Assembly: GCA_009746045.1 (NCBI GenBank)
Contig: RPFO01000041.1
Coordinates: forward strand, 6,075,323-6,139,322
Length of the DNA stretch: 64,000 bases
Reading direction: 5' to 3'
DNA from: Mesostigma viride
Lineage: Eukaryota; Streptophyta; Mesostigmatophyceae; Mesostigmatales; Mesostigmataceae
Position 1 is the stretch's first letter. The number at the start of each line of letters is the position of its first letter. The notes beneath the pieces are model-generated. The model was not told the DNA's origin. It was given only the letters and a program-made list of their open reading frames with translations, and did not search any database. Shown piece after piece: positions 8,607-52,284 of this stretch. The translations under genes were made by a program, and so were the position numbers.

Positions 8607-8688
8607 AGTTAACGTAAAGGATTTACGTTAGATGGATAGAGATTGTTACGCTCTTTCCAACGGCACCTTGAACGCCTCATTTGGTTAA
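8607..8688 (+). repeat. RT-A 5' LTR, first part
   Basis: The first 82 bp of the LTR, starting AGTTAACGTAAAGG. Close to the terminus are inverted arms TAACGTAAA and TTTACGTTA with a 3-bp spacer. It is cut at TTAA (8685-8688) by PB-1 and resumes at 11331. Confidence 0.85.
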
Positions 8689-11326: not shown

Positions 11327-11330
11327 TTAA

Positions 11331-13887: not shown

Positions 13888-16802
13888 CTGTCTGAGGCAA
13901 CCCCTACACACCTTAATTCACCCAGGGGGGAGGCCAGGTGCTCCAATGCAGACTTTATATCTGGGCAACAAGAGGGTGATCTCCAGGTTCAGGGTGGCCC
14001 CAGGTCACCTGGAGAGGTACAGGTTCCTATGAAGACGTCCTTGACAGCTGATGCAGCTGTAAGTATGTCTGACCCTATGCATCCTCGTGCTGGGCACGCG
14101 GGTGGACCTCTCATTTTGAGAGAAACCAATGTACAACCACAGAGGGGTGTGAAGGCCTCTGGTGGTATGCATGTGGTCCCTGCTGGCGGTCCAGGTGTTG
14201 GGCATGAGCAGGGTGACTCAGGCTCTGAGTCAGAACAGGATGGAAGTCAGCATGGTGATGCTGGACAACCTGACAGCACAGTCCTGACTGTGCCAGGGGG
14301 TGGTCCCACGCCGAATGGGGTAGTTTTTCGCGCATTTTGCAAGAAAAAAACGCTGTTTTCGACTTTCTGTTTCGAAATTTTTTCTGGCGATTTGAGAACG
14401 CCCGCAAAATTTTGCACAATTTCGCGTGATTTTCGCACAATTTTCGCACAATTTCACACAATTTCACACGATTTCACAGGATTTCGCATAATTTTACACG
14501 AAGGGTCTAGCTGCAGAGAGACCCTTTGAAAATTTTCGCATGAATTCACGCATTTTTTACATGTCGTAATTTTTTTACAATCGAACTTTTTTGCATGAAT
14601 TCGCACTTTTTTGGTCAGTTTTTGGTCAATTTCAGCAAAATTTTCAAGATTTCGCATGATTTTACACTTTTTTGGCCTGGTTTTGGTCGATTTCAGCAAA
14701 TTTTGCGCGATTTCGCACGATTTGCGAAGGGTCTAGCTGCAGAGAGACCCTTTCCGGCCGGCGGAAAATTCGCTCGGCTGCAAATTTTTCGGCAAGAATT
14801 TCGGCGCAATGTCCGTTTTTCGGACGATTGAAACTAGCGTTTTTTTCTTGCAAAAATCTACCCCATTCCGCGTGGGACCACCCCAGGGACTGCTTCCTCT
14901 GTGTACCAGGAGTTGGGTGCCCGAATCCACAACATGTTTGGGCATGCCACTTCTCTGTCAAACAACTTTGCCTTCCGTATGGGCAGGGCACCCCTTCTTA
15001 AGGCGTGTCAGCAAGCTGCCTCACGGTGTAAGTGCCAGTTGTCCTCCAACAAGCCCAGGAAATCACATGCCAAAGCTCTACCTCAGAGCATTGGTGATCT
15101 GCAGTGTGATATCCAACACATCAGGGGCATGCAACTGTTGGTGTGCGTGGACAGGTACACGAAATACAAGGTGCTAGAGCATTTACCTTCTATGAAGAAC
15201 AGGTACTTGCTGGCTGCCCTGCAGAATGTAAGAGCCAAGTTTCCTACCACAAGGATCCAGGTGGACATGCAGTTTCAGCATCTCAAGGGTGATCCTACCC
15301 TTCCTGAGTTGCTGGTTACACCTAGGGAGGCTCATGGGCAGCAGGGTGCTATCGAGAGGGCAATCCAGGAGGTCAAGAAATTGATCATCTCTGAAGACTG
15401 GGTACCCTTGTCTGCACCTGCACTTGTCAGGAGTGCATGGCTGAGGAACGTGGAGCAGCAGCTGAACAGCAGGGTTAACTTCTACTATGATGGAGTTGCT
15501 GTCAGCCCAATGGGTCTATATCATGGCCTGTGCCCACCACATGTGCTGGAGGGCTGGAAACATGCTGCACATGTCACCTTTGCCAAGCTGAGGGAGAAGG
15601 ACCGGGGTTGGAAGATGCTGGAGCCACAAGTGGGTCAGAAGGTCCTAGCTTGGAAGGAACCTAGCCTTTATGGCAAACGTGGTAGCTGGAGTCCTGGGGT
15701 GGTTACCCAGGTTGATGAAGCTAGCCACGCATGCTTGGTCAGCATAGAGGACGAACCAAAGCATGTACACCGGCTGAGTTGGTCATATGTCAAGCCTAAC
15801 CTGATGAATGAGGGCAGTCAGGCACAAGGCTCACAGGATCTGCAGGATTTTCAGGTCCCAAGTGACATCACTGACGCAACGACCACATCTGTTGCAGGGG
15901 AATCTGTCAGCCCTGGCCAGGTTGCAGAGGTACTTGTTGAACAGGCTGCAAGGTCAACAGCTGGGGAGTCAACTGTCAAGCCCAAGGCACTAACCAAGCC
16001 CAGGGGGACAAGTTTGGCTGGATTGATTGGGGCTCTACAAAGAGCCAAGAAGCAGCCCAAGGTAGCCAAGCTCAGGTGGCATGGCAATCTGGGGCTGGAC
16101 ACTGCCTTAGAGGTAGACACTAATTCTCAGGTTTCCATCATTGGGACCAGGGCTGCAGCAGGGTACAGCATGTCTGAACCCAGCTATCAGTTTGTGTCTG
16201 ACTTCAGTGGCGGGGTACACGTGAAGGTACTGGGTGAGGTATTCATTCCTATCCTTGGACAGGACACTGCCTTTTGTGTCTTGGAGGGCTATCAAGGACC
16301 TGCTCTTCTGGGGCAGAATTTCCTATGCCAGGATGGAGTAGTGATCACGTCCTCTCTCCTGACTAAGGAAGGGGCTGGTCAGGTCCCACTGATTAATTTC
16401 AGGACCACTCACCTATCACGTGCAGTAACCAGGTCGGTTAAGCGTGTGCAAGTGTGCCAGGGGCAGGAGCCCTTGGTTGATGACCTCATACTGCCAGCGG
16501 CTAGTCATCCAAGCAGTTTGGGCATTGGTCCTCACTCACTTGCTGGACACAGCCCTATCAACTACCAAGACCTGGTGAAGCTCATGTCCTCTCCCATTAT
16601 GTGTCCCCAGGTCACACTGGGTCTGATTAAATCTGGGGAGGACTGGATCTCCAAGAAATGCGTGGAACCTGTCAATGACCTGCCTCCTGCACGACGTCTA
16701 CTCAAGCTCAAGTTTGTCATCAAGATGAAGGAGGTGGACGGGGTCAAGGTACCACATGTCAGGCCAGTGCTGAATGAGTTCAAGGGTACTGGTGAGTGCA
16801 CT
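13888..16802 (+). CDS. pol: RT-A pol, N-terminal part: integrase then protease-like domain
   Basis: The frame continues from gag after one UGA, is interrupted by M1 (14299-14882), and resumes in phase once M1 and one CCAGGG copy are removed. An H-x4-H...C-x-C zinc region (IHNMFGH, CKCQ) lies near 14927-15052. An integrase core follows, with CDIQHI, VDMQF and AIERAIQEVKK supplying D, D and E. A linker then leads to a retropepsin-like domain: VDTNSQVSII (16113-16142) and ALLGQNFL. The usual DTG/DSG is DTN. The start of the reverse transcriptase (LKLKFVIKMKEVDG) precedes PAL at 16803. Integrase upstream of protease is opposite to Ty1/copia order. Confidence 0.85.
14299..14882. mobile_element. 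M1, TIR element (MITE-like) in RT-A
   Basis: A 584-bp insertion with 25-bp terminal inverted repeats starting GGTGGTCCCACGC, one mismatch, and a 6-bp target duplication CCAGGG (14293-14298, 14883-14888). Removing it restores the RT-A frame. Inside are two copies of a hairpin, AGGGTCT...AGACCCT, near 14504 and 14731, and an array of short CACAATTTCGC-type repeats (14410-14490). No coding capacity. The superfamily is uncertain because the GC-rich flanks allow other boundaries. Confidence 0.75.
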
Positions 16803-17686
16803 GAGTTACGTTAAATAGTGCCGGAACCTTTTGCCGCCTGAGGCAAATCGGTCCGTAACACTATTTTGCCCGGAATAACCACTTCCGAGCACCCAAGTTA
16901 ATTCGGCCGAATTAACTTGGGTGCTCGGAAGTGGTTATTCCGGGCAAAATAGTGTTACGGACCGATTTGCCTCAGGCGGCAAAAGGTTCCGGCACTATTT
17001 AACGTAACTAAAACCTGGCCTCGTGGAGGGGGGACGAAGAGCCCGAGACATCCGCCTAGGCCGCTGAGCACGCACCACTAAATGCGCCGGAGCTGCCTCA
17101 GTGAGGATTCGAACCCCTGACCTCCAAGTTGCACGGGTTTTAGTTACGTTAAATAGTGCCGGAACCTTTTGCCGCCTGAGGCAAATCGGTCCGTAACACT
17201 ATTTTGCCCGGAATAACCACTTCCGGGCACCCAAGTTAATTCGGCCGAATTAACTTGGGTGCTCGGAAGTGGTTATTCCGGGCAAAATAGTGTTACGGAC
17301 CGATTTGCCTCAGGCGGCAAAAGGTTCCGGCACTATTTAACGTAACTAAAACCTGTGCACCTTGGAGGTCAGGGGTTCGAATCCTCACTGAGGCAGCTCC
17401 GGCGCATTTAGTGGTGCGTGCTCAGCGGCCTAGGCGGATGTCTCGGGCTCTTCGTCCCCCCTCCACGAGGCCAGGTTTTAGTTACGTTAAATAGTGCCGG
17501 AACCTTTTGCCGCCTGAGGCAAATCGGTCCGTAACACTATTTTGCCCGGAATAACCACTTCCGGGCACCCAAGTTAATTCGGCCGAATTAACTTGGGTGC
17601 CCGGAAGTGGTTATTCCGGGCAAAATAGTGTTACGGACCGATTTGCCTCAGGCGGCAAAAGGTTCCGGCACTATTTAACGTAACTC
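16803..17686. mobile_element. PAL, 884-bp hierarchical palindrome element in RT-A pol
   Basis: Three roughly 206-bp near-perfect palindromes, P1 (16804-17009, axis 16906.5), P2 (17142-17347, axis 17244.5) and P3 (17480-17685, axis 17582.5), separated by two 132-bp cores in opposite orientation (17010-17141, 17348-17479). The axis of P2 is exactly the axis of the whole element, so the entire 884 bp is itself a palindrome. Ends read GAGTTACG...CGTAACTC, with a 3-bp duplication ACT (16800-16802, 17687-17689). Removing element plus one ACT restores the pol frame and the conserved four-residue spacing between GTG and EELYTP seen in RT-B and RT-F. No coding capacity. A palindrome created by assembly error is made unlikely by the target duplication. 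Confidence 0.85.
17348..17479 (+). other. PAL core unit with Pol III B-box and tRNA-like ends
   Basis: Contains GGTTCGAATCC (17374-17384), a perfect match to the tRNA T-arm/B-box consensus, followed by CTGAGGCA, which resembles an acceptor 3' strand. Downstream, GTGCTCAGCGGCCTAGGCGG (from 17418) resembles an A-box/D-arm, so B-box precedes A-box. The core ends are complementary (AAAACCTG and CAGGTTTT). The inverted mate is at 17010-17141. A sevenfold match GCCTCAG, complementary to CTGAGGC, sits in the adjoining palindrome arm. Whether this is a relic tRNA, a permuted tRNA-like gene or coincidence is unresolved. Confidence 0.4.
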
Positions 17687-17689
17687 ACT

Positions 17690-18991
17690 GCTGAGGAGTT
17701 GTATACCCCTGGCATGCTGCATGACACTTGGAGGCTGCTGCTGTGTGTACTTCTAGGCCTTCTCAACAAGGGCTTGGACTATGGCTCAGTGGTGGTAGAC
17801 TTCAAGAGGGCATTTCTGGAGGGGGATGCAGATGTGGCACAGGAAAAGTGGGAGGGCAAGACGCCTTTCTATGTTAGGGTGCCTGCTGTATGGAAAAGGG
17901 ACATCCACACTGAGTTCCTTAAAATCCTCAAGGGCCTGGAGGGCCTGAGGTCAAGTCCAATAATCTGGAGGGAGACACTCAACCGTTTCCTGAAGGAGCA
18001 TTGCAACTTGAAGGTCTCTCCTGTAGACCCCTGTCTGTTTCTGGGGCAATGGGAAGGCCTACCAGTGTATGCTTCGCTGCACGGGGATGACCTACATCTG
18101 ATAGCTCCCACGTCGTGGCTTAAGGAGCTGATCTCCATCATTAAGTCCAAGTTTCCTCTGGGTAGGGAACAATGGCAGGTGGAGAATGAGCCTCTGCTGT
18201 TTGTGGGCATGGAGGCCACACTGGTGAAGAAGGGGGGGGAGTGGCGTATGCTGCTGGTGGGGGGCAATGATTATCAAGAGACCCTCATTAGCAAGCTTCC
18301 TCCAACCATCACACAGGCACTGTGTCCTATGGTGAGGGGCATGGTTGCTTGGGTGGCAGGCATTTCCAGGCCAGACCTTATGGTCATAGCCAGGTTGCCT
18401 GATGACATGCTGGTGGAGCTAGGGTCTGCCAAGGTGGCTGATCAGGTCAGGGCTTCATCTGGCATTCTGTTGTCTGCAGTGGATTTATCACAACCCATTT
18501 GCATGGAGCTGTATGTGGATAGCTCAATGGACAGCAGGCAGGTCTCCAAGGTCAGGGGCAGGGCTGCAGGGCTCTTTGTGCTCAGACAGGAAGGCCTGGG
18601 GAGTTTGGTGAGCTGGTTCAGTCGCCTGCACAAACGGGTGGCTGTCAGCAGTGATGTGGCAGAATGCAGGGCTATTTGTGAAGGCATTCACACAAGCCTT
18701 TATTTGAAGGAGTTGCTTCATCAGATGACTTCTAACACTCCTTGGCCACTTCAGGTTACCACTCTTCTAAAAACAGACTCCATGGGGATGGTGCAGTTTG
18801 TGCACAGGCAGATGGCCAGAAGTAGGGACTTGGATTATCTCCTTCTTAAGGAGTTGTCCTCCTTGGCCAATATTGAGCATATCCCTGGGGTTGACAATCC
18901 TGCTGATGCTTTGACCAAGCTAGTGCAGAAGGCAGCAGTGCAATACAAGGTTCTTCAGTCTCTGATGGACCCATCTCAGCAAGCTGTCTAA
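17690..18991 (+). CDS. pol: RT-A pol, C-terminal part: reverse transcriptase and RNase H
   Basis: Copia-type (RVT_2) reverse transcriptase: EELYTPGMLHDTW, DFKRAFLEGD with the first catalytic Asp, GLEGLRSSPIIWRETL, and SLHGDDLHLIA at 18074-18106. The catalytic box is HGDD (18080-18091) instead of YVDD. RNase H follows with YVDSSMDSRQ, SSDVAECRAI, KTDSMGMVQF and NPADALTK, the usual acidic positions of copia RNase H. The frame is intact to the stop at 18991. The part before 17690 is on the other side of PAL. Confidence 0.85.
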   Translation, partial: AEELYTPGMLHDTWRLLLCVLLGLLNKGLDYGSVVVDFKRAFLEGDADVAQEKWEGKTPFYVRVPAVWKRDIHTEFLKILKGLEGLRSSPIIWRETLNRFLKEHCNLKVSPVDPCLFLGQWEGLPVYASLHGDDLHLIAPTSWLKELISIIKSKFPLGREQWQVENEPLLFVGMEATLVKKGGEWRMLLVGGNDYQETLISKLPPTITQALCPMVRGMVAWVAGISRPDLMVIARLPDDMLVELGSAKVADQVRASSGILLSAVDLSQPICMELYVDSSMDSRQVSKVRGRAAGLFVLRQEGLGSLVSWFSRLHKRVAVSSDVAECRAICEGIHTSLYLKELLHQMTSNTPWPLQVTTLLKTDSMGMVQFVHRQMARSRDLDYLLLKELSSLANIEHIPGVDNPADALTKLVQKAAVQYKVLQSLMDPSQQAV

Positions 18992-20511: not shown

Positions 20512-21160
20512 AGTTAGCGAGCAGCCAGAACTGTGAGTTCCTGGTCTCTCGCGCCACACAACGGGATGAGCCAAAGTTGCAAAGGCAGCAACCTTTTAAC
20601 CCGTGCACCAAGCCACGACCACGGTGAGCGGTTCCACGTCCAATGTGGGAGCCTCGGTTCGTGCTTGCCAAGATAGCTGGTCATCCCCCATGACCAAGCT
20701 ATATCCTTTGCGTTGTTCCTCGTTCCCATCGGCGTGACGAGGCACGTGCAGGCAGGCAAGCAAATCCTCAACGTCCACTGGCATCAGTGCAGAGCCAGGA
20801 CGAACTGGATTTGCCTAGACTCTGCAACCTAGGAAGTACAGGACCTGTCACAAGCCTGCAAGGCCTAGTATCCTTGCAGACCTGTGCCAGTTCCTGTAGT
20901 CCACCAGTCACAGGCTGCTGCTCCTCTGGTCTACGTGGACCACAGTCACGTGATAGTCAGGCTAAGCCTGTGCAGGCACGGCCTGCCACGTGTCCTGTCC
21001 ACTATACCAGAGGACTGTACCCTAGTCGGCCACGGACGGCTAGGACTTCGGGACCTCATATCTTTCTCGTCCCTTGTCTGTTTCAGGCGGTCAGCACGGC
21101 GTTGGAAAGGTCTTTCCAAACTGCATCCACTTAGCATATTGGTTGCCCAAAATGCTAACT
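20512..21160 (-). repeat. RT-B 3' LTR (left copy)
   Basis: 649 bp, no difference from the right copy found by eye. Just inside it, on the minus strand, AAAAGAAGAAAGGGTTGG serves as a polypurine tract, ending GGTTGG like that of RT-A. Confidence 0.9.
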
Positions 21161-22171
21161 CCAACCCTTTCTTCTTTTGGAGCTGGACCAGCTTGAAACA
21201 AACCTAACCTTGCTTGTGCCCACTCAGCCACAGACCGCTTGGTCCCTTGAGGTTGATCAGACCTTTGAGGGCCCAGGTTCCTGCCTCCTTTGGGTAACAA
21301 CATATCTGCCCTTGGACCAGGCTAGGTGTACTGGCCAGTGAATCAGAGGTCACCCCAGGTTATCCCCTGACCCCTTGGTCAGCTCCCAACCTTTCCTTGG
21401 GAACTTGGTGCTAGATTAAAGTCAAGGCACATTACCTAGTCCAATGGCTGGGATTACAGGATGCCAAGAACGTACTATTGTGAGTTCCTGATCTTTCACA
21501 GTTATCACAGGCGCCCGTTCTTATGGCGCCCGCCTTGGCCAGCCTTTCCCTTTTATGCTCAAAGAGACTCAGGTAGCACCTGCACAAATACTGCCTCATT
21601 GGGGAGCCCATGTCTTCACTGGGTGTTAAGCCCAGGAATCACTCATGCCAGGCTGTGGCTCTGCTGGGGAATTGAACCCCACCCCAACCTCCAGGTTTAT
21701 AGGTGACCTGGAACTTTACACAAGAGAAACATTACAACCATGAGAACAACATGAGAATGACATGACATGATTATGTTTTATTCAAGCATTATATAACCCA
21801 GAATGTGGCCCCCTGGCAACCATGTTCCACATGGTCACACAACCAGGTTCTTTATTAGCAACAGGTTGGAAACAAGCACTAGAAAACATATATACAGCAA
21901 CCTGTAAGAACCAACATTCGGGTTGCCCTTGCATGGCCTAACTGTTTGAGGCCAAAGGCGTCGACTTAAGTCCTGGCGACTCTTCTGAACCCCATGGGGA
22001 GGGCCAGGCATGATTCTCAGCTGGTAGGAGTGACATTCCACACCAACTCCTGTCCAGGAGGGTGTACCTAACCCTGAAGGACCGGCTGTCAACCAGTAAG
22101 CACCAGTCACCACTTGGTACTTTGGTCAAGCAGCCCACTGGGGGCACCCAAGCTGAAGCAAGGCCTGGTCT
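21161..22171 (-). other. RT-B 3' untranslated region
   Basis: About 1 kb between the pol stop and the LTR. No coding signal. GGCGCCCG-type strings near 21510-21530 recall the GACGGGCGCC strings of the RT-A 3' UTR. Confidence 0.6.
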
Positions 22172-25100
22172 CTATGGCCGCCCGTGTAAGGGGTCCATGA
22201 GCCCACGGAGCAGGGGGTACTGCCTCTCCGCCTTCTCCTCCAGCTTGGTGAGGGCATCTGCAGGGTTGTCCACACCAGGCACATGTTCAATGTGAGCTAG
22301 GTAGGACATCTCCTTGAGCAACAAGTAGTCAAGGTCCCTGCTCCTGGCCAGCTGCCTGTGCACAAATTGCACCATGCCCATGCTATCAGTCCTCACCAGT
22401 GTGTGCAGCTGCAACCTACAGGAAGCCACTTGACATAGCTGGTAGAAGAGCTCCCTCAAGTAAAGAGCAGTATGCAGCCCTTCACAGATTGCCCTGCACT
22501 CAGCAATATCACTGCTGGGTGTAACCCTGTTCTGCAACCGACTGTACCAGGTAACAAGTGAGGTGTGATCTTGCTCCAGGGTAACTAATGCTGCTGCCCG
22601 GCCCCTGACCTCTGTGACCTTCCTATTGTCCATAGAACTGTCCACATAGAGAACCATGTCAAGGGGCTTGTACAAATCCACAGGACCCAGTATGAGAGGG
22701 GGAGACATCATGACAGCCTGCACCACACTCTCAGCACCCACCTCAACCAGCTGGGAATCAGTAAGTCGACTCAGAACCAGCAAGTCAGGGGCACATATAC
22801 TTGCAAGCCATGCCAGCATGCCCCTGATGGTAGCACACCTAGCCTGCGTGATGGGCTCCTGCAATGCATCTACAATCTGCTGTGGGTAGTCCTTACCACC
22901 CTCCATCCTGATGAACCACGAGCCCTTGGCTTGGAACAACGTAGCCTGCATGCCACAGAAGACCATAGGCTCATTCTCCACCATGTGCTGTATCTTACCC
23001 AGCTCAAACCGCTTCTGGATCTTAGCCAAGACAGCCTCAACCCAGTCTGGTGGACCTATGAGATGCAGGTCATCACCATGCAGTGAGGCAAAGACAGGAA
23101 GGCCATTGTAGGACCCTTGGAACAAACAGGGATCCACTGGAGACACAGAACCCACAAGTATTCTTCAAGAATTTCTCTAGGCTCTTTCTCCAGATAATGG
23201 GACTGGACCTGAGACCTTCCAACCCTTTCAGAATTCTCAGGTACCTGGCCTTTATCTCTGCTCTCCATACAGCAGGTACAGTCACAAAGAAAGGAGGGAT
23301 ATCTCTCCAAGTCTGCCTAGCCTGATCTTGGTCACCCTTGAGAAAAGCCCTCTTGAAATCAATCAGCACAGAGCTATAGGGCACACCCTTAACCAGAAAA
23401 GACAGAAATATACACAGCAGAATCCTCCACGTGTCATGCAGCATCCCTGGAGTATAGAGCTCCTCATCTAACAACTGGCCAGTGCCATGATACTCGGTTA
23501 CAACTGGTCTGACATGTGGCACCTGGACACCATCAACCTCCTTGAGCTTGAGGACAAACATCAATCTGAGCAGCTGGTGAACTTCTGGCAGCTCATCCAC
23601 AGGTTCTGCACAGTTGGAAACTATCCACTCATGCCCAGAAGCAACAAAGCCAAGAGTCCATGCCTTAGCCATCTTGGGGCTCTGCATCATCTCGACTAGC
23701 TGGCGCCAGGGAATAGGACTGTGAGCAGCTATCTGGTACCTGTTTACCCCTAACTGCCTTGGATCAAAGGTGGTTGGGATTATCAACAAGTCCTCAGCTA
23801 TGGGCTCCTGACTCTGAGGACCCTCAGCTGGCTGACTCCTAACAGCCTTCACCGCCACTGCAAGACCCTGGGAATAGTGATATCTTTCAAGGGGGAGGCT
23901 GCCCCTGCCTTCTAGTGCCAACTCATCAGAGGTCAAAGTAACCCCTGGCATGCACAAGAAGTTCTGTCCCAGAATGGCAGGCCCCTTATAGCCCTCTACC
24001 ACACAGAACGTGGTGGGCACCCCTAAGATAGGCACACTCACTTCCCCAAGGATCTTCATGGACACCTTTCCTGAGAAATCAGACACAGCAAGGCAACTGG
24101 GATGGGACATCTGTAAGCCTACAGCATCCTCTTCCCTGATGACAGACACCTGTGAGTTGGTATCTACCTCCATTGTAGCTGCCCAGCACGACCCCCACCC
24201 CGTGAGCTTGGATACCTTGGGATCATGTTTGCTGCGCATGAGTGCTCGGATGACGTCCGCCATGAGAGGCCCCCGGGCCTTAGGTGGCTGCCCCGTCCCC
24301 TCTGGCCTTGTGACAGTTGCTTCAGCAGCCTCCTCCTGCTCGTCATCTTCCAGCAGGGACAGACCATCATCCACCACCAGAGGATTGTTAGCTGCTGCTG
24401 CCTGGCTCTGGCCTGGCTCCTCAACCCAGCTGGGAGGGCCTGGCCCGTCTGCAGGCCAGATTGCATGTGGCCTTCTTTCCTTGACATGAGCCCAGGACAA
24501 CCTGTACACGTGCCTTGGATCCTTTTCCAAAGCCACCAGGCAAGATCTGTTAGCTTCTTCCACACGAGTGACAACCCCATCCTGCCACTTCCCCCGCTTG
24601 CCTGGAATAGATGGTTCCTTCCACATCCTGACCTTCAGCCCCACCTGAGGCCTCAGCACATTCCAGTTCTTGTCCTTACGTCTCAGCTGGGCAAATAACC
24701 TATCTGCCTTCCTAAGACTGGCCTGCACCACGTTCTCAGGCAACAAGCTATACTGCAGGGCCAGGGGAGAGACAGCCACACCATCAAAGTAATAGTTAAC
24801 CCTGTGGTTCAGCTGCTCTTCTATCCCCTTACACCAGGCTGCCCTCTCTAAGGCAGATGCCACAAGTGGCACTGACTCTGCTGCTAGCACCACTGTCTTC
24901 ACTTCACGTATGGATCTCTCTACAGCCCCTTGCTGCCCATGACTCTCCCTGGGGACTACTACCAGCTTACAAGGCAGCTGGTCCTGATGCTTGAGCAAAC
25001 AGTCAAACTGCAAGTCTGCCTGCACACTCTTGCACACCCCAAAGCCTGGGATCAGGGCCTTCATACCCAACAACAAGTGGTGCTCCTGCATACCAGGCAG

Positions 25101-25703
25101 AACGTCTATCAGCCTGTATCTGCTGAACCTGTCCACTGCCACCAATATATACAAGCCCCTGATATGCTGGATATCCATCTGGATGTCGCCACGCTCCCTA
25201 GCAGGCTCCCTAGCATGGGACTGAGGTGGGTGAACAGCATTCTCCTGGCAACCACAGTTCTCAGCAGCAGCCTGGCATGCCTCCCACAAAGGCTCCCTAC
25301 CTAGCTTCCAAGCAAACATTGCTGCCTGCCCAGAATGCCCAAACATATGATGCAATCTATGGCCAGCCTCAGCATAGCTCAGCACTCTGTCAGTACTGAC
25401 CTGGCGAGACGTCTGAACCGTGTGTGGGGACACATGATCCACTCCTGAGGTTCCAGGGCTTCCTGCAGGCCATCCTGACTCCCCAAGCCAGGTCCTGCAC
25501 CCTGGACCGCTCCAGGCCCTTCCAGCAAGGTCCTTGGCCCTCCAGGCCAGCACCTGCTGGAGACCCACCACCTGCATGAGGCATAGGGAATTCAGCTGCA
25601 GCATTGTTATTGCAATCCAGTGGAAGAACAACATCTTTACACCCTTGGTGCTGCACAAGGGGCACACCCCCATCCTTATGTACATCCAACACACCTTCCC
25701 CAA
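22172..25703 (-). pseudogene. pol: RT-B pol: integrase, protease-like, RT, RNase H (one frameshift)
   Basis: Reading from 25703 downwards: H-x4-H zinc region (LHHMFGH, NCGC), integrase core (MDIQHI, QADLQFD, GAVERSIREVK), protease-like VDTNSQVSVI (24150-24164 encodes DTNSQ) with AILGQNFL, then reverse transcriptase with DFKRAFLKGD. A single frame change near 23150 moves to a second frame carrying SPVDPCLF, SLHGDDLHLIG (HGDD at 23069-23080) and RNase H (YVDSSMDNRK, SSDIAECRAI, NPADALTK) to the stop at 22172. Domain order and the HGDD box match RT-A. The single frameshift could be real or a sequencing indel. Confidence 0.85.
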
Positions 25704-25736
25704 GGGGTGATTGACTATTTACAGGGGATGATGTAG

Positions 25737-27091
25737 CTAGTCACTGCTGCCCGACTGGCCCCCTGCCCCAGCAGGCTTGGCCTTCCTGTCAGGACACTCA
25801 CGACGCCAGTGACCTTCCTTGCCACACACAAAGCATGCTCCACCCTTCTTCCCAGACCCAGCCCCACCCTTGCCAGGCTTCCCTGGCCTCCCTGAGACTG
25901 TCCACCCTGCTTGCCCTGGTTGCCTTGAGCTTGGCCCTTGCCTTGCCCTTGGCCACCCTTACCCTGCTGACCACCAGCTTGCTGGCTCCCAACCCCTCCT
26001 TGGGAACCTGCACCCTTGCCACCCTGAGCCCCCTGCCTCTGGCGCCTGAAGCGCTTACGCTTGTTGGGCCTTGCCCCATCACGGGCTGGGTACCCGGGGA
26101 CATCACCTTGGCCCTGCACAGCGGAGGTGGCATTGCTGCCATGGGACTGGATAGCTTTGCAGGCAGGATCTGGCTTCCTTATGCTGAGGATTACAAGCTC
26201 CAGAGCACGCAAGGAGCCATCAGTCTGGTTAAGAAACATGCGGGCACTGTTCCTCCCATCCACACTCAAACCCATACGGTCCAGGAAATAGTCTGCCAAG
26301 GCCCTATCTGTGACCAGGAAGCCATACTTGGCCCCCTTGTCTCTGATACGGTTGAGCCTAGCCCATTCCTCTGCCACAGGCCCACTATCTCAAAGGTGTC
26401 ATACTGATGTTTATAGTAGTTGGTGAGGTTGAGAACCTTGTCAGAGAACTCCTCCCTCAACCCATCCAGGAACTGTGCCCAGGTTAGCTTATCCTTGACA
26501 CCAGTCCTAGCCTTTTCCCTGACACGCTCTGACGAGTCCCTGTTGCACGTGGACGAGTGAAACACTTGCACTAGGTTGACAGTGGGGTCCACGGAGAGCA
26601 CAACCAGCTCCATGTCCTCTAGCCACTTGTCTAGCTTCCTGTGCTAGTGGTGGGTTAAGAGGCTTTTGTCCATTCATAAGCGTGACTGCACTCATGTGAG
26701 GTCTCGACCCTGGCAGCGCCTTCACCGGCTCCACCACAGTGGGTGTCACAGTAACAACGCCACTTGGGCCAGCAAGCACAGGGGAGAGCACATCCACGTG
26801 AGGCCTCTTACCATTGCCGTCAGCGGAGGTGTCCCTCTTACGCTTCTCCACGGCAGGTTGCCCATTCGCCACCGTTATTGCATCAGATGCTCCTAGTGCC
26901 CGCGCCTTGCGCGCCTCCTCCACCGAGTCTTCGTGCCGTCTCTTGCTGCCTGGTCTCTTTCCCCCATCGCCCTCGCTGGCTGGGATCGCCTCCCCCACCA
27001 GCTGCTCCTTGTCTTGCCGAGGCTCCTGGCTTGCTCCAGCCGGTGCCTCCATCTCGCCCTTGTCGCCGTCTCCCGGTTTGCCACGAGGCAT
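25737..27091 (-). pseudogene. gag: RT-B gag, several frameshifts
   Basis: Starts MPRGKPGDGDKGEMEAP at 27091 with a charged N-terminal third. Frame changes occur near 26630, 26380 and 25850. The pieces cover a capsid-like region, a Gln/Gly-rich stretch (GQGQGKGQAQGNQGKQ), and a CCHC knuckle, CFVCGKEGHWRREC, near 25793-25836, ending at TAG (25737-25739). TAG and a second in-frame stop follow before pol, so gag and pol are not one open frame here. Confidence 0.75.
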
Positions 27092-27143
27092 TATATACAG
27101 TGGGATGGCAAAACAAAACAGGCGATAGACAAGGAAAACAGGC

Positions 27144-28073
27144 TCAAGCGCTGGTGCTGCCTGAAGAAGCCGCTGGCCGTTCCTCAGCTATGGCCTCCTC
27201 CTCACGCTCCTGCGCTGTGCGTGCCACCGGTGTCCCCACGCGCGGAACTGAGCGGACCTCCTCCGCGTTGTAAGGACCCAATACCCGGCTCACCGGCCTC
27301 CCGGCTGGTGTCTGCTCCACTGGCAGCCTAGGCGCACTACCACGGCGATACCACTGCAGGTTCCTGACCCACCGACTGCCACCACCCCGCCTGTCGTTTC
27401 GTGACCCCCGACCAATCTCAGCAAAGTCGTGTTCTGGCTCAAACGGGATATGCAACTCCGCCCTACGCCGAGCTGAGTAGCCCTCGTTTGTGCCGTCCCC
27501 TTCGTCAATCTGCTGTGACGAACGAGCTATGATGCCCGTTGGGCGATCCACGAACTCGCTGTGAAAATCCTCGTCGGTGACGTCCCGACCGGTGATGACT
27601 GTCACCGTTGGCCCACACGCCCCCGGCCGGCTCTGCAACCTTGGTGTGTCCAAGGTCGACCAAATGCCTGCTGGACGTGTCGTGATCACCCAGTGATCAG
27701 CGTGACCACGCGCCTCTTGGATCAAGATATTGACCAGGTGCTCACACGTCTGAGCCACCACTTCAGCCGAATCCCACGGACTATCGGCCTCGCGCGTCTG
27801 CGCGTCCCGTATGATATGTGACGCGTCGGTCCCCTCCCCCAGCGAGCTTGTCGCCACCCAGTGGTTATACAATCTGGTACCACCTAAACAAATGGCCACC
27901 AGCTGGCCCAGCGTCTCACGCGCTAAGTCCAGCGCCTGAATGGTGACGTGCCCGCCCTGGTACGCAACCTCCAAACTGTAGATCAACGAAGCAATTTCGT
28001 CGCGAATAGCGACGAGCCGCTCCGTGCAGACCCGCCCCGTTTCCCCTGGCGACGTCGTCGCCCTTATCCTCAT
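27144..28073 (-). CDS. ORF0 candidate of RT-B
   Basis: An open frame upstream of gag in the position of the RT-A ORF0. The first ATG of this frame is at 28073 (MRIRATTSPGETG). A Pro/Ser-rich start in another frame (MSAEARVETPESSP at 28290) may be the true N-terminus, lost by a frameshift. The middle, ETLGQLVAICLGGTRLYNHW, loosely matches the EELDNAISSLTGYQRNLQNW region of RT-A. The C-terminal third is Arg- and Glu-rich. Function unknown; homology to the RT-A protein is only suggestive. Confidence 0.45.
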   Translation of the reverse strand: MRIRATTSPGETGRVCTERLVAIRDEIASLIYSLEVAYQGGHVTIQALDLARETLGQLVAICLGGTRLYNHWVATSSLGEGTDASHIIRDAQTREADSPWDSAEVVAQTCEHLVNILIQEARGHADHWVITTRPAGIWSTLDTPRLQSRPGACGPTVTVITGRDVTDEDFHSEFVDRPTGIIARSSQQIDEGDGTNEGYSARRRAELHIPFEPEHDFAEIGRGSRNDRRGGGSRWVRNLQWYRRGSAPRLPVEQTPAGRPVSRVLGPYNAEEVRSVPRVGTPVARTAQEREEEAIAEERPAASSGSTSA

Positions 28074-28324
28074 CACCACAGGGTCGTTTGCCGACGGCCC
28101 TGCTGCGTTCCGAACACAGCAACCCAACCTCCTTCCGCAAGACCCCTCGCAACGTAGGCGGCCTGCACAAATGTAGAAGCGTTGGATGGGTGGGAATAGG
28201 GGAAAAATGCGTTCTCGCGCGCTGGCAACTCGGGAGCTGCTTCGCGCCTGGGGATGACTCAGGTGTCTCGACCCGAGCCTCGGCCGACATGAAAAACCTT
28301 GCACAACAGAAATGCAATAGTACG

Positions 28325-28973
28325 AGTTAGCGAGCAGCCAGAACTGTGAGTTCCTGGTCTCTCGCGCCACACAACGGGATGAGCCAAAGTTGCAAAGGCA
28401 GCAACCTTTTAACCCGTGCACCAAGCCACGACCACGGTGAGCGGTTCCACGTCCAATGTGGGAGCCTCGGTTCGTGCTTGCCAAGATAGCTGGTCATCCC
28501 CCATGACCAAGCTATATCCTTTGCGTTGTTCCTCGTTCCCATCGGCGTGACGAGGCACGTGCAGGCAGGCAAGCAAATCCTCAACGTCCACTGGCATCAG
28601 TGCAGAGCCAGGACGAACTGGATTTGCCTAGACTCTGCAACCTAGGAAGTACAGGACCTGTCACAAGCCTGCAAGGCCTAGTATCCTTGCAGACCTGTGC
28701 CAGTTCCTGTAGTCCACCAGTCACAGGCTGCTGCTCCTCTGGTCTACGTGGACCACAGTCACGTGATAGTCAGGCTAAGCCTGTGCAGGCACGGCCTGCC
28801 ACGTGTCCTGTCCACTATACCAGAGGACTGTACCCTAGTCGGCCACGGACGGCTAGGACTTCGGGACCTCATATCTTTCTCGTCCCTTGTCTGTTTCAGG
28901 CGGTCAGCACGGCGTTGGAAAGGTCTTTCCAAACTGCATCCACTTAGCATATTGGTTGCCCAAAATGCTAACT
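28325..28973 (-). repeat. RT-B 5' LTR (right copy)
   Basis: Mate of 20512-21160. The sequence after it on the minus strand is CGTACTATTGC, similar to the CGTATTAC that follows the RT-A and RT-D LTRs, so the three share a non-TGG primer-site region. Confidence 0.9.
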
Positions 28974-32819: not shown

Positions 32820-33274
32820 AGTTAGATGAGATGCTTAGGCTGACACACGGATTTCCGGCCTGCGCGCCGCGTATTGCCTACCGCGGCTGAGCGGGACACC
32901 TCAGTACAGTACGGCAGGGTGTACGGTACTGAGGTGTCATGTGGACCGATGTGCGGTTAGTGCCAGACTGTTCCTAGGTGCTAGCTCGACCCGCCAGGTC
33001 CGGTGTAGCCGGGCCTGACGGGCCGAGTCTTAGCTGGTTGCTAGTGACGTGGTCGCATGGCATTGCAGTGTACAGTTGTCCACTGGTCGTGTGCTGCAGG
33101 TAGCACCGCCATAGGCATATAGGCGTAGCACTGGGGAGTGCCACAGCACCCGAGTCTGCCCAGTTCCATTCTGAGCCCTCAGCTTTCATCGCTCTCTCAT
33201 TGTATTATTGTAATACAATCATCATTCGCTCTCAGCTTTCGCAGTTGTTCGTCGTCCCTAGTCTCCATCCAACT
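32820..33274 (+). repeat. RT-E 5' LTR
   Basis: Contains a long hairpin with arms GACACCTCAGTAC (about 32897) and GTACTGAGGTGTC, which may act in transcription termination or RNA folding. The mate is 40858-41312. Confidence 0.9.
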
Positions 33275-33318
33275 TGGACTGAAAAGTTCGATATTTTTTT
33301 TAAAGCAAAAAAAAAGAT

Positions 33319-34990
33319 ATGGCTTCCAACAACGGCAACAACGGCAACAACAACAAGGGGAAGGCGCCTGCCAGGCGCACCTCACCCCGCCTTTCGCCGG
33401 AGGGCACGCCCTCCACCACCGATGCGAGGGTGACGCCCAACGTCCCTTCCGCACGGTGGTCGCTGACCAACCCAGGCGTCGGGGCCCGCAGGTGGGGCCC
33501 GGCGCCCGGGGGATGGCGAGCGGCGGCCGTTTGCCACTGGCGGTTCGTCCGCCATGGCACCTGGGGGGCAGGTCCCCCGGGCACGACGTTCCCCCGTCGC
33601 AGGTGACGGGGGTCGTGAGCGGAGTGATTCCTCCGAGGAGGATGGCGAGGTGCCGCCTGCGAGGCCTCGGCCTTCGCTTGAGCTTTCGTCGCAGACACCT
33701 GCGACGTCTGGCAACCTTTCCGTGGGCCGACAGATGGCCACCATGGACATTGACCGGTATGGGGAACATGTTCCGCCCCCGGTCATGTTCGGGCGCCCAC
33801 CCCATTTTCTCCCCCTTGGGGAGGACGACATCCCGGCGTTCATTGCGGTGAACGGCCGGATCATGCTCAACGTTTTCAGTTGCTTCCAGATGAGGAGATA
33901 CACGCGATAGAGGTTCATCGGGTGCACTCGCTGATCGAGGGGCGTCTTAGGATGCAGTCCCACTGGTTCAGGTGGCGGTTTGGCTGTACTGTTTCGCCAA
34001 TCGGCCGAGGCACAACCCCGGCACTGTTGATCAGTGGGCGTCCAGGCAGCGCCAGAGAGAGGCGCTGCGCGTGGTCTCCAGACCAGAGATCGCGCTGACT
34101 CCGTTGCCAGCGTGGCCCCAAGTCACGCCAGTTGGCTGGGGCCCGGATAGGCGTGAGGCGGCTGCGATGCCGCCTGCGACGGGGCGCGGGGCGGCAGACG
34201 CCCCCAACACGCCCATGGGTGGTGAAGCCACCCAGGACCCTCTGGCAGGTCAGAGGGTCCAACCTCAGCCGCAGGCTCCCCCGCCCAGCGTGGGGGGCCA
34301 GGTGGCTGAGGAGGCCACCGGGGTCGCAGGGACCCCGGCGGCGACACAAGCGCCCGGGGTCGCAGGGACCCCGGCAGCGACGCCGGCGCCTCCGGCGCTG
34401 GCGGGGGATGCAGCCCCCATGGAGGGTGTCACGGGCACCTCCAGCGGCTCTGGGGGGCAGGCCCCCTCTAGCCGCAACAAGGACAAGTCCCTGGCAGGGC
34501 CGGAGGGGCCCAGGGTCCCACCGCAGCTGGGCAGCAACCAGCACTGCTGGAGGGCGACCTGCAAGGTCGCGACTTCATCACCCTGGTGATGAGGCCGTGT
34601 GGCGTGCCATACAGACAGCCACAGCCTCCTTCCGTGGGCTGGCCGACAGGAGCCAGCAGATGCACGTCGCGGAGGCGGGCAGCCTGGTGTGTGCAATCAT
34701 CACGCACATCCTGGGCCTGCCCAACCTCCAAGAGGGCACACGCAGGGTGTGCGACGACCTGCTGCCTGCCCTGCAGGCTCTCCTCTCAGGGAGGAGGGTG
34801 CAGGGCAGCAGGGTGCGTCTGGTGCGTTTGCTGGAGCTCCTACACAACGCCATCCTGAGAGGGGCGGGTAGGTGGCTAACTCTGCCTACCTGGTTGCATC
34901 ACAATCTTACTAACCCTACTGACGATGAAGTGTCCCTCTCTCCCACCTTCCATGATTGGGAGGAGGCCCGCAGCAGGAGGCGGGAAGTGA
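33319..34990 (+). pseudogene. RT-E ORF0-like region, multiple frameshifts
   Basis: Starts MASNNGNNGNNNKGKAP at 33319, then changes frame several times. Pieces include a Ser/Pro/Arg-rich section, a Pro/Ala-rich section (GTPAATQAPGVAGTPAAT) and a helical C-terminal piece. That piece contains VCDDLLPALQALLSGRR and LVRLLELLHNAILRGAGRW, whose spacing resembles DLALLSLLTRGVRSRERQV and LASLREWIPAGWELL of the RT-A ORF0. Placed before gag, it is probably the divergent ORF0 of this element. Confidence 0.45.
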
Positions 34991-35021
34991 CACACACTCA
35001 CACCCCCACCAGCCCACCCCT

Positions 35022-35989
35022 ATGTTGTCTAACCCTCCTACACAGCCCATGTTTGCCCATCCTGCTCAGCTCACTCAAGTAGCACTTCCCTCTCAGCAGG
35101 TCTCTCCTGTGAATGCTGCAGCAGCAACACCATCTTCTCCCTCTCCCCCTGCATCCCCCTCTAGGTTGCCCACTTACAATGAAAACCGTCCTGTGGATAG
35201 GATTAATGTCAGGGGGCTGCCTGAGGGGTATACTAGGGAGCAGGGGAATCATGCACTTCTCTCTCTGCAGCTGGCTAGGGAGGAACTGAATGTCAAGAAT
35301 TGGTTTGGATCTCTCATGCAGGGGGATTTCTACCATCAGTCCTCTTCTCAGATTCAGAATCTCATTCTTGTCTTCCAGCGTAGGTATCCCAAGTGGCAGG
35401 ACACGCAGGCTAGGGCAGTTTGGGAGGCTTTCATGAAGGAGCTAACTGACCTCCTCTCCACCCCCTCATCTGTGGACATATATGGGGCATTCAGGTGGGT
35501 AGAGGAATACAGGGTCACATCAGTGGACTATGTGGCTGAGACAAAGAAATATGAGCTAGCCATCAAAGCACGTCCTGATGTCCAGCAGCTAGATCACAAG
35601 TTCTTGCTGCGTTCTTCCTTGAGAAACTCAAACTTGACAAAAACACCTACGCTATGCTTGCCACAGGAATGGCAAAGTACTGGGAGGACATGAAGGAGGC
35701 ATTGGATTATATCAAGCTGGCCTTGGCTCCCCTTAGCCAGGGGGCCATGGGCACCTCTGTAAAGAGGGTCAGGGGGGAAGAGAGGGAGGAGGAGGATAGG
35801 GAGAGGGAAGACAGGAGCAAGAGACCTGTCACTATGGCAGAAGTCAAGTCCCTGCTGGGACAAATGTTTAAGGGCAAGGGCAAGGGCAAGGGCAAGGGCA
35901 AGGGCAAGGGCAGGGGCTGGGGCAAGGGCAAGGGTAAGGGGCAGTCTCCCTCCAAGGGGGGCAGCTCCAGCAACAACAACAACAACAGT

Positions 35990-36040
<51 letters not shown>

Positions 36041-36245
36041 AACAACAACAACAACAAGAAGCAGGACAAGGAGGACAAGTCTTCTCAGCGGTGCACCCGC
36101 TGTGGCATGAAGTACCACCTGCGGCCCACCTGCCGCAAGAACGTGGACGAGCTGGGGCATTTGGACGTCCTGTGCCACAAGTGCCACGGGCCGCCCCACG
36201 GTGACCCCAAGGACTGCAAGCGGCCTCCTTACGGCAAGAAGTGTG
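35022..36245 (+). pseudogene. gag: RT-E gag with double zinc knuckle
   Basis: The ATG at 35022 (MLSNPPTQPMF) opens a copia-type capsid (LPTYNENRPVDRINVRGLPEGY and on). A frame change lies at about 35650-35690. The second frame has a Glu/Arg-rich segment, a Lys-Gly repeat (KGKGKGKGKGKG), a poly-Asn run and two knuckles, RCTRCGMKYHLRPTC and LCHKCHGPPHGDPKDC. It then continues without a stop into the integrase, so gag and pol are one frame after the shift. Confidence 0.75.
35969..36057 (+). repeat. (AAC)n microsatellite encoding poly-Asn
   Basis: Almost uninterrupted AAC triplets encoding about 27 Asn between the Lys-Gly repeat and the zinc knuckles. RT-A gag has a shorter Asn run after its knuckle. 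Such tracts expand by slippage and probably form a flexible linker. Confidence 0.9.
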
Positions 36246-38383
36246 AGTCTCCCTCTCATGCTGGCTTGAGTGTGCCTGCTTCACCTTCTTCTTCTGCATG
36301 CCCCACTGTCAGAGCAGTGAGCAGTTCTGGAAAGGTGCTACAGCTGGTTTCAGAAGATTATGTCTCTAAACCAACCTTCACATCTATGGTTCCCAAGGTG
36401 TGCAGAGTGTCCCCAGCAGAGGATGCTCAGATCAGTTTTCAGGAGCTTGCTTTGCAGTTGCATTTCCTTTATGGGCATGAAGTGAGTGCAGAGGTGGTGG
36501 CAGCAGCAATAGGGGGGGCAGCACTCAGACGTGCATGCCAGGTGGTCAGATCCCACTGCCAGCATTGTCAGTTCAATGCACCCAAACCCCCTAAGTGGCA
36601 TGTAGCTACCCCACCTAAGAGCAAGGGCAGGGTGGTAGGAGATGTCTTTCATATCAAAGGACAATCTTACTTGGCACTTAAAGATGCATGGTCAAGGTAC
36701 ACAACCATTGAACCATTACCTGGAATGGACAAGACACAGTTGCTCAGGGCTCTCTTGATTGCTCAGGCCAGGTACTACCCTGTGGAGGCATTGTTACTGG
36801 ATCAGCAGTTCACATGTCTTGCCAATGAACCAGGGTGTGAGGCTATTGATCTGGCTGGGCTAGAAGATCATGAGAGGCAAGGCATTATTGAAAGGGCCAT
36901 CAGGTCCATTAAAACCCTTGTAGCCAAAGAAGATGGCAATCTGCTGGCTGACAGTGGGTCCTATGCTGACAGAGCTCTGTGGTCCACCAGGTTGTGCCAA
37001 GTCCTCAACAGGAGGCCACTCATGAAAACCCCACAAGGGGTGGTCATTACACCAGATGGATTGCATGCAGGCATTTATCCACCTGAGGTACTAGCCCTCT
37101 ACAACGCACAGCGAGCACAGACAGCTAGCAGGTTAGCTGTCAAGGATGCAAAGCATCCACGTCCCACCTTCAGAGAAGGGGATCAGGTCCTATTCTACAA
37201 GGAGTCGGGACTAGGCAAGGTGGGTACCTGGCATGGGCCAGCCACCATCCTAAAGTTTAACACCACTGGCAGGACAGTGTTAGTTAAACACAATGACACG
37301 GGAAAAATTCACAGGTGTTCACCTCACAGGATGAAATTGTATTTTCCAACTGTGTCAGACGTGGCAGAGGAGGAAGAGCTGTTGGCCGACAGCCCTGTAC
37401 AGTTGCCTGGCATCCCAGCGTTGCCCAGTGAGTGGTTGTTTGGAACACCCACTGGTGAGTGTGAGAGCCACACCCACTGTGACACCCAGGTCACCCTTGA
37501 TGATTGCAGGCAGTCACTGCAGGATTGGCCCCCTGCAGCAGAGGGTCACATTGGCAAAACAGGTGATCAGCAACCTATCACCTCTACAAGTGTGAACATA
37601 GCTCAGCCACTAGCTGCACCTTCCAAACGCAGCCTAGCAGACGCTGTTCGCATTTTACAAGCAGCTCATAGAGCCAAAGCTCAAACTGCTGCAGGATCAG
37701 CTAAGGTGGGGAAGGTTGGGCAGAATGACAATAGCCCATTTATGGTTGCAGTGGACACACAAGCCCAGGTCAGCATTATCAGTGCCCTGGCTGTGCCCCA
37801 TTTGCCTTTGGAACCTTCACCCTGGCACCATGTGGCTGATTTCTCAGGGCAGTCATCCCTCAAGGTATTAGGTCAGGTCATGTTGACTATACTCGGTATC
37901 CCCACTCCTTTTCAGGTCTTGGAAGGTTATAAAGGGAATGCTTTATTGGGGGATCCTTTTCTCTGTTACCCTGGTGTCCTCATATCCAGTGATAGACTAT
38001 CCATCCAGGACATGGGTGGTGTTGATCTGAATCATTTCAAAATTTCTCTTGAAAAACTTCTTAACACCAACATTGCTTCTGTAAAATTTGCTACACCCAA
38101 GTATGCCCCAGGGCAAGAACCCTGTGTGGCAGACCTGGTTCACAACCAAAAACTTCATCCCAACTCATTTGGATTGGGCAAGCATGATGTGGCTAAAATG
38201 TCTCCTCTTTCTTATGAACAGATAGAGCAAGACTGTCGCACACACATAGGATTCCTAAAATGGGTGGAGGCCTTTAACAAGGCCAGGGAAGAATGGGTAG
38301 TGCCAGATCCTCTTAGTCCTTCTCATACTCCCCTGTCACACCTATTGACAAAAAGCCTGCAGGGTGCAAGCACTTGCGCCTGA
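36246..38383 (+). CDS. pol: RT-E pol, integrase and protease-like domains
   Basis: Continuous with the gag knuckle frame (frame start near 35654). Zinc region LHFLYGH...CQHC; integrase core GDVFHIKGQSY, LLLDQQFTC and GIIERAIRSIKT supply D, D and E. A linker then leads to the retropepsin-like VDTQAQVSII (DTQAQ at 37753-37767) and ALLGDPFL. The usual DTG/DSG is DTQ. The frame ends at 38383, just inside the reverse transcriptase start; the following frame overlaps by 10 bp. Integrase precedes the protease-like domain, as in RT-A, B and F. Confidence 0.85.
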
Positions 38384-39785
38384 AGTTTGTGTGTAAACAT
38401 AAGCCAGCAGCAGATGGGTCAGTCATCTTTCATGCTAGACCTTGTGTGACAGAGTTCAAGGGCACCACTGATCTGACAGAGGCAGAGTTGTACACGCCAG
38501 GCATTCAGCAAACATCCCTAAAAATCTTGCTGTCTGTCTTTGTGGGTCATCTCAATGATGGGGATGACTATATCTGTAAGGCTACAGACATTAAAAGGGC
38601 TTTCCTGAAAGGCTCACCTGAGATAGCACAACAAGTGTGGCATGGTCAGGTGTACGTAGTCTCCACTCCCAGAGTTTGGGCAAAACACATCCCTCAGCAG
38701 TACCTGAAAGCTAACATAGGTGTTGAAGGGCTGCAATCAGCTCCTCGCATTTTCAGGATGTCAGCTCAGGCTGTGTTTGAAAAGTTAGGGGCTAGATATG
38801 ATGACATAGACCCTTGCTTCTTTGTGGTCCCACACCCTCATGGCATTCTCACCTTTGTGTGGCATGGGGATGATCAGCTGATTGCTGGGCCAAGGCGTGC
38901 TGTGGATGATTTTATTCAACAAGTGTCACAGCATTTTGAGATTGGCAAGCAAGTAGAGCTGGGCACCACTGCCATAAAATTTTGTGGCACAATGTTACAA
39001 CTCCAGCAGCATCAAAACCAGTGGGTGTGTGCACTCTACTCTCCCAATGATTACATGCACAGCTGCTTGGAGGTTTTGCAAACAAAAATCAAACCTGGAG
39101 CCTGTCCTACCATTAGAGGCAAGCTGGGGTGGTTGTGCTCAACGTGTGCACCTCACCTGGCTGTGGTTAGCAGAGTTGATGATGATGTCTTGATGCAAGT
39201 AGGTCACAAAGCCATCACCAAAACTCTCCAGGAGGGCCCTCCCCTTATCTTGCACTCCTTGGATCTCCACAAAACCATTCACATCCAAGCTATGATGGAT
39301 AGTTCCATGGAGTCCAGGCAGATTACCAAGTTGCAGGCAAGGGAGTCAGGCTTGTATTTTGTGCAGAATGATGATGCACCCTTGTCTCTCATTTCATGGT
39401 ACAGCCGGTTGCATAGACGCAAGGCTGTCAGCAGCAATGCTGCTGAGTGCAGGGCAGTGGTGTCAGCAGTGCTTCATGCCAGGTACTTGAATCATGTGCT
39501 GGTTTGGTTGCAGATGCAAGCAGGCAGCAATGCTGGGGTGGTGGCACACTTGCTCACTGACAGTCAGTCAGTCCTCAGTTTCCTTGCTAACCCCTATGCT
39601 GTCACACTGATCTTGACTGGGTGGTCCTGAAACAGGAGTCCACCTACTGGGAGTCCACCCGTCACGTGGAGGACAAACACAACGCTGCTGATGCACTCAC
39701 TAAAGTGCCTCAGCAGGCAGCTGACAATACAGCTGTTGTACCACTTGATGAACCCCTATGGCAAGCAGGCAACCCTGCCCCATAG
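38374..39785 (+). pseudogene. pol: RT-E reverse transcriptase and RNase H, frameshifted
   Basis: Reverse transcriptase with LRLKFVCKHK, ELYTPGIQQTSL, DIKRAFLKGS, GVEGLQSAPRIFR and VWHGDDQLIAG (HGDD at 38863-38874). RNase H with MMDSSMESRQ, SSNAAECRAV and LTDSQSVLSF. A frame change near 39600 moves to a second frame carrying HNAADALTK to a stop at 39783-39785. One shift at each end of this piece separates it from neighbouring frames. Confidence 0.8.
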
Positions 39786-40857: not shown

Positions 40858-41312
40858 AGTTAGATGAGATGCTTAGGCTGACACACGGATTTCCGGCCTG
40901 CGCGCCGCGTATTGCCTACCGCGGCTGAGCGGGACACCTCAGTACAGTACGGCAGGGTGTACGGTACTGAGGTGTCATGTGGACCGATGTGCGGTTAGTG
41001 CCAGACTGTTCCTAGGTGCTAGCTCGACCCGCCAGGTCCGGTGTAGCCGGGCCTGACGGGCCGAGTCTTAGCTGGTTGCTAGTGACGTGGTCGCATGGCA
41101 TTGCAGTGTACAGTTGTCCACTGGTCGTGTGCTGCAGGTAGCACCGCCATAGGCATATAGGCGTAGCACTGGGGAGTGCCACAGCACCCGAGTCTGCCCA
41201 GTTCCATTCTGAGCCCTCAGCTTTCATCGCTCTCTCATTGTATTATTGTAATACAATCATCATTCGCTCTCAGCTTTCGCAGTTGTTCGTCGTCCCTAGT
41301 CTCCATCCAACT
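40858..41312 (+). repeat. RT-E 3' LTR
   Basis: 455 bp, no difference from the 5' copy found by eye; followed by the target duplication TTAAC. Confidence 0.9.
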
Positions 41313-52277: not shown

Positions 52278-52284
52278 AATCTTC

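Follow-up and report, generated by a model that had tools for sequence, protein, structure and literature searches.

Mobile elements in which a core is enclosed by two flanks, and whose multimers share flanks between neighbouring units, have been described for KolobokP, where they are accompanied by target duplications (PMC9587614), and for Cassandra (PMC7215508). The order of the units described there is direct. KolobokP is found as solo flanks as well as tandem multimers, with reported duplications of 3–4 or 4–5 bp. Its flanks, which have inverted ends of their own, form direct repeats, about 450 or 660 bp long, and it encodes a transposase and a nuclease (PMC9587614). Cassandra and other TRIMs are small non-autonomous units, and arrays of about three LTRs, in which LTRs are shared between tandem copies, have been reported (PMC7215508).

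Structure of the palindromic element

The window analysed here is a stretch of 64,000 bp of DNA from Mesostigma viride. It contains a palindromic element made up of the following parts:

P1, 16804..17009, no strand: perfect 206-bp palindrome with arms of 103 bp and the A variant in both arms
Core 1, 17010..17141, minus strand: 132 bp, with a tRNA 3'-half on the minus strand and a B box at 17105–17115
P2, 17142..17347, no strand: central 206-bp palindrome with a single mismatched pair (17226/17263)
Core 2, 17348..17479, plus strand: inverted copy of core 1 with 2 differences and a B box at 17374–17384
P3, 17480..17685, no strand: perfect 206-bp palindrome with the G variant in both arms

The three 206-bp palindromes and the two 132-bp cores in opposite orientation of the original prediction are thus borne out, P1 and P3 being perfect, P2 having one mismatched pair and the cores differing at 2 positions. 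All of these parts lie, as had been claimed, in a single outer palindrome whose centre at 17244.5 is also the centre of P2. Its length is however 882 bp (P1 to P3 exactly) and not 884 bp, and 5 of its 441 pairs are mismatched, by substitutions only. The outermost G...C of the claimed 884-bp unit is part of a CACTG target duplication, and the outer edges of P1 and P3 are exactly the ends of the element (AGTTACG...CGTAACT). The best reading of this structure is a basic unit of palindrome, core and palindrome (206 + 132 + 206 = 544 bp), with the locus as an inverted dimer of this unit that shares the central palindrome.

A scan for inverted repeats with exact arms of at least 14 bp and gaps of 0–11, which imperfect repeats would escape, found none in the 64-kb window beyond these three centres. 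A BLAST search using the half-arm and the core revealed no second copy of the element in the window. The longest reading frame wholly inside the element has 38 codons, and the observed/expected ratio of CpG is 1.09 in the element, higher than in the host retrotransposon (0.45) or in the window as a whole (0.68).

The locus resembles KolobokP in its flank-internal-flank architecture, in having flanks with their own inverted ends and in being a flank-sharing multimer bounded by short duplications. It differs in its palindromic flank of 206 bp, in the inversion of its second core and in having no internal reading frame of more than 38 codons, so that neither direct-repeat flanks, nor tandem multimers, nor an encoded DDD/E transposase, by which KolobokP is recognised, are found in the element (PMC9587614). 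The original prediction also held that no known family has this design. This was too strong, given that flank-sharing flank-core-flank multimers have been described, although in direct and not in inverted order. Among the literature matches listed, as judged from titles and the starts of abstracts, there was no inverted palindrome-core dimer. Nested palindromes formed by central deletion, as mentioned in a paper on Stowaway MITEs, were considered and rejected as a misfit with the identical inner copies.

In parvoviruses such as AAV (PMC11575299), the rolling-hairpin dimer consists of a terminal palindrome, the genome, a shared central palindrome, the inverted genome and a terminal palindrome, which is the order seen here. 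The element has no replication protein or coding region, however, and the resemblance is one of form only.

Folding and the A/G variant

The strand of 892 bases folds at −613.5 kcal/mol, whereas 20 shuffles average −139.2 (z −62.6), and a chance origin of the palindromic structure is therefore excluded. The minimum-energy fold is a single unbranched hairpin, not the cruciform of cruciforms or branched RNA that had been envisaged. The 103-nt half-arm alone also folds better than its shuffles (z −2.84, with 2 of 200 at least as good), so the arm carries a further, imperfect level of symmetry. The two core strands stand out less from theirs (z −1.62, 9/200, and z −0.84, 38/200). To call the design recursive was a fair description, and the self-fold of the half-arm adds one imperfect level of symmetry more than was claimed.

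At position 85 of the half-arm the sequence is either CCGAGC or CCGGGC, and from h1 to h3' the variants follow in the order A, A, G, A, G, G. The variant is symmetric in P1 and in P3 and mixed in P2, just as had been noticed. The suggestion that P2 was made from halves of P1 and P3 was rejected as not significant, since exactly one palindrome is mixed in 12 of the 20 possible arrangements of three A and three G, and the middle one is mixed in 4 of them. The pattern of the variant thus calls for no special origin of P2. Within the half-arm, the G form completes a 9-bp stem (−15.4 versus −8.5 kcal/mol, RNA parameters).

Insertion site and host retrotransposon

The element is located within another mobile element, and the insertion site has the following features:

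14901..18991, plus strand: copia-like pol region of the retrotransposon into which the element is inserted (weak RVT_2 match, empty-site alignment)
16799..16803, no strand: left copy of the target duplication, CACTG; 5 is the sole length at which the flanks are identical among lengths 1–14
17686..17690, no strand: right copy of the target duplication, CACTG, from the same comparison of flank lengths 1–14
23404..23559, minus strand: paralogue of the insertion site without the insert (empty site), within another of the window's elements, ungapped over 156 bp with 76.3% identity

The 3-bp duplication ACT proposed earlier is accordingly corrected to the 5-bp CACTG. The first in-frame stop of the host frame is at 16812, within P1, and removal of 887 bases keeps the reverse-transcriptase frame open, the joined flanks being in frame as predicted. 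In the empty-site test, 96 + 90 bases of flank were joined and aligned within the window. This gave the ungapped paralogue listed above and an alignment to 57864–57733 (133 bp, 75.2%, two gap openings). Frame restoration, the ungapped empty-site paralogue and the 5-bp duplication agree with the claim of a mobile unit with a target duplication, and a clean insertion of such a unit is well supported, judged from this one insertion.

The host is labelled copia-like because of its paralogues and a weak RVT_2 match, which in the part after the insert has an E-value of 0.00016 and is below the curated cut-off. Elsewhere in the window, one element is clearly of the copia type (RVT_2, E 9e-49), and gypsy-type integrase and chromo domains are present in one more. 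The arms have diverged (5/441) as much as the host LTRs have over their alignable part (6/493; Fisher P = 1), and this comparison therefore does not tell which event came first.

Two side observations concern the host element. Its 5' LTR is interrupted by about 2.6 kb (8689–11326) located between two TTAA (8685–8688 and 11327–11330). The ends of this insert, GGGGACGTGGCGC and GGGTGCCACCTCCCC, are near inverted repeats by eye, and a relative of its first 470 bases (98.5%), likewise at TTAA, begins at 63529. The insert resembles a DNA transposon with TTAA as its target. Furthermore, the host 3' LTR is followed by an apparent start of an internal region (19941–20511), which is split by the element at 20512–28973 and resumes at 28974–29023. 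This is possibly an LTR-sharing tandem of the host family.

Assembly and amplification artefacts are a notorious problem with long palindromes. In a real insertion of a palindrome or of palindrome-core-palindrome, chimaeric or mis-assembled reads could have raised the number of inner copies. However, the arms differ at 5 pairs by substitutions, which makes the copies distinguishable, and the unique flanks, the exact 5-bp duplication and the intact frame would be hard to obtain from a snapback chimaera. We consider such an artefact quite unlikely.

The restored frame would also suit an introner, in which case the insert would be removed as an intron and the gene would remain functional. In Amoebophrya, hairpin introners combine inverted repeats with direct repeats of 3–5 nt around an in-gene insertion, and many have non-canonical splice sites (PMC7789003). 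Among candidate sites up to 40 bases from the edges of the element, 18 GT/GC...AG pairs would keep the frame, counted by length alone; one of them has the donor GTGAGT at 16792. On the other hand, GT...AG or GC...AG at the boundaries of exact excision was found at 0 of the 6 offsets within the duplication. The inverted repeats of the Amoebophrya introners are 8–20 nt, compared with 103–441 bp here, and their architecture is another one (PMC7789003). Judged from the splice-site motifs, splicing of the element is unlikely, and we regard an introner as very improbable indeed.

Terminal similarity to LTR retrotransposons

Two LTR retrotransposons of the window are cleanly bounded:

20512..28973, minus strand: LTR retrotransposon, ends AGTTAGC...GCTAACT, flanked by the duplication CTTCC
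32820..41312, plus strand: LTR retrotransposon, ends AGTTAG...CCAACT, flanked by the duplication TTAAC

The left end AGTTA and a 5-bp duplication are common to the palindromic element and both of these. The right end is TAACT in the palindromic element and in 20512–28973, and CAACT in 32820–41312. The host element's own LTR begins AGTTAACG. AGTTA is present at 37 of 63,996 positions in the window, and the terminal match amounts to a single pentamer, because in a palindrome one end fixes the other.

Possible LTR pairs made up 7 of 13 self-comparison rows; left out were two that the palindromes themselves produced and four that link different elements. A first duplication scan, in which a terminal inversion of at least 2 bp was required, gave candidates for three pairs; the candidate 51506–57442 (ACACC) lay off its pair boundary. 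A second scan, made without the inversion condition and within 3 bases of the pair boundaries, found a flanking duplication in two of the seven pairs, both of 5 bp and both with the left end AGTTAG. The remaining five have no flanking duplication within 3 bases of their boundaries, which means that other terminal types may exist. When AGTTA...AACT flanked by 5-bp duplications was searched for, 5 matches were found, compared with 0–5 for the other 29 anagrams of AGTTA, one of which also reaches 5. This count alone is therefore not significant, and the support for the terminal likeness comes from the LTR-bounded elements.

Three direct repeats of 464, 338 and 190 bp were also observed in the window (61468–63467, 2916–4822 and 4295–5039), with copies that are 99.7–100% identical and start 1.5, 1.6 and 0.6 kb apart. 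They have no flanking duplication at their boundaries and are either short elements or duplications.

The element combines terminal inverted repeats, a target duplication and the lack of a coding region, as foldback elements and MITEs do. It could be an internally rearranged palindromic MITE that belongs to a DNA transposon superfamily making 5-bp duplications (e.g. Transib), in which case the likeness to LTR ends would be due to chance. The inverted repeats without coding capacity and the length of the duplication fit this, and the pentamer match is weak by itself. However, the termini are presumably unlike Transib ends, and the shared central palindrome would still require a dimerisation step. 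Such an origin appears unlikely to us.

Search for LTR-type replication signals

A duplication of 4–6 bp (CACTG) and LTR-type termini (AGTTA at the left end and AACT at the right) are both present, as in an LTR-type element. The locus could hence be a TRIM-like miniature LTR retrotransposon with a palindromic LTR, its 882-bp form being a template-switch product. An LTR of 206 bp, an internal region of 132 bp, the 5-bp duplication and the LTR-type pentamer at the ends would fit, LTRs without TG...CA ends exist (PMC5659011), and so do tandem Cassandra elements that share LTRs (PMC7215508).

Several observations speak against this. No polypurine tract was found before either palindrome in either orientation: the purine fraction is 0.40–0.45 at the four junctions, compared with 0.80–0.90 for the 20-mers before the 3' LTR of three retrotransposons of the window, the host stretch being taken one base out of register in this comparison. 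The tRNA-like stretch of the core lies away from the palindrome edge, where a primer-binding site would sit. BLAST of the half-arm (E up to 1) gave no match elsewhere in the window, and thus none in its LTRs. As regards a primer-binding site itself, none was recognised; the core starts with AAAACC in both orientations, unlike the post-LTR sequences of the three retrotransposons with which it was compared. The flank is palindromic and the order is inverted here, not tandem as in Cassandra (PMC7215508). We consider a TRIM-like element improbable.

tRNA-like sequence in the cores

Both cores carry the tRNA B box GGTTCGAATCC. The B-box consensus GGTTCGANTCC occurs three times in the window, compared with 0.06 expected, and 0 of 100 shuffles reach three, although two of the three occurrences are copies of one core and are not independent. 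The third is a B-box-like sequence, GGTTCGATTCC, at 19276–19286 in the 3' part of the host retrotransposon. The core shares a 23-mer with a tRNA-Thr of a viral contig (IMG/VR). Together with the B box, this sequence match identifies a tRNA 3'-half in the core.

There is no significant A box; the best candidate has one mismatch and is equalled or bettered by 616 of 2000 shuffles. For this reason, the idea of a tRNA-type polymerase III promoter that extends over palindrome and core was dropped. ARAGORN found no whole tRNA, either at default or with introns to 200, and with the threshold lowered to 50% it gave 15 mutually inconsistent tRNAs in three overlapping stretches. The tRNA family in Rfam had no match up to E 1, and a tmRNA, which belongs to that clan, gave a match of 11.7 bits (E 0.5) at each of the two B boxes. 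The 14 matches to miRNA and other Rfam families (E up to 1) are all below their gathering scores, and the best of them sit on perfect hairpins and were taken as fold artefacts.

Searches of sequence collections

The collections searched consist of prokaryotes and viruses, where absence says little on a eukaryotic element. Seven patterns, five from the palindrome and two from the core, were searched for in IMG/VR, and five of them gave no match. A 16-mer of the palindrome gave 13 matches, and the 23-mer of the core gave one, the tRNA mentioned above. The 16-mer also had 31 matches in the prokaryote genome collection, compared with about 120 estimated at random. BLAST of palindrome and core against the 45 loci matched in these searches (E up to 0.1) recovered only the searched words with short extensions. 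There was no match among plasmids for the whole element or among phages for its left half. In a search for reverse-transcriptase relatives in IMG/VR, 3 stretches matched the pattern and none was confirmed.

Origin of the inverted dimer

We tentatively favour an account that may well be right, without calling it probable: the locus would be a non-autonomous, composite-like palindrome-core-palindrome element trapped as an inverted dimer, probably inserted in trans by the integrase of a local retrotransposon. The short internal reading frames point to insertion in trans. A local copia-like integrase, making 5-bp duplications at AGTTA...AACT ends, would carry it out, and any two outward palindrome ends would be a possible substrate, so that forms of 206, 544 and 882 bp are expected. 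The window contains no 544-bp monomer, and the dimer is known from one copy.

The palindromic nature of the flanking repeat may itself have given rise to the dimer, by foldback. In a single-stranded copy, the palindrome at the 3' end would fold back and prime synthesis, by which the core and the distal palindrome would be copied again. The product would be P-core-P-inverted core-P, in which P2, at the centre, is the primer hairpin. For AAV2, rolling-hairpin replication that lacks terminal resolution has been named as a way in which alternating repeats “may arise” (PMC11575299). Against this account, a polypurine tract is absent and the core starts are unlike post-LTR sequences, so that the account offers no source for the single-stranded copy.

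Alternatively, the dimer could have been made after insertion, by recombination of a circle of palindrome and core into a resident palindrome. Such a circle can enter inverted because a palindrome reads the same both ways, and the result would be P-core-P-inverted core-P inside unchanged target duplications. The KolobokP multimers, (LTDR-INT)n-LTDR, likewise keep their duplications and have been explained by unequal crossover or circles (PMC9587614). The six near-identical 103-bp arms, with one polymorphic site split 3:3, also fit exchange between arms. However, 206 bp is short for homologous recombination, and this route should yield direct-order multimers too. We regard it as rather unlikely. 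The foldback route is somewhat ahead of it, although the divergence of the arms and the host LTR does not separate the two.

A further and doubtful speculation, quite improbable in our view, is that the element is a gene-less, palindrome-ended parasite of retrotransposons, which would combine copying by foldback self-priming with a resident copia integrase that reads only the LTR-like tips. The rolling-hairpin cycle would then be run by reverse transcriptase or a host polymerase, and the 882-bp locus would be a trapped replication dimer.

Implications

If the inverted dimer inserted in trans is real and repeated, a palindromic flank would let a composite-like element multiply in inverted order, and the integrase of an LTR retrotransposon could carry DNA without the sequences needed for LTR reverse transcription. 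A ladder of lengths of 206 + 338n, each with 5-bp duplications, would be predicted. Such a form would have a bearing on the origin and persistence of long perfect palindromes in eukaryotic genomes.
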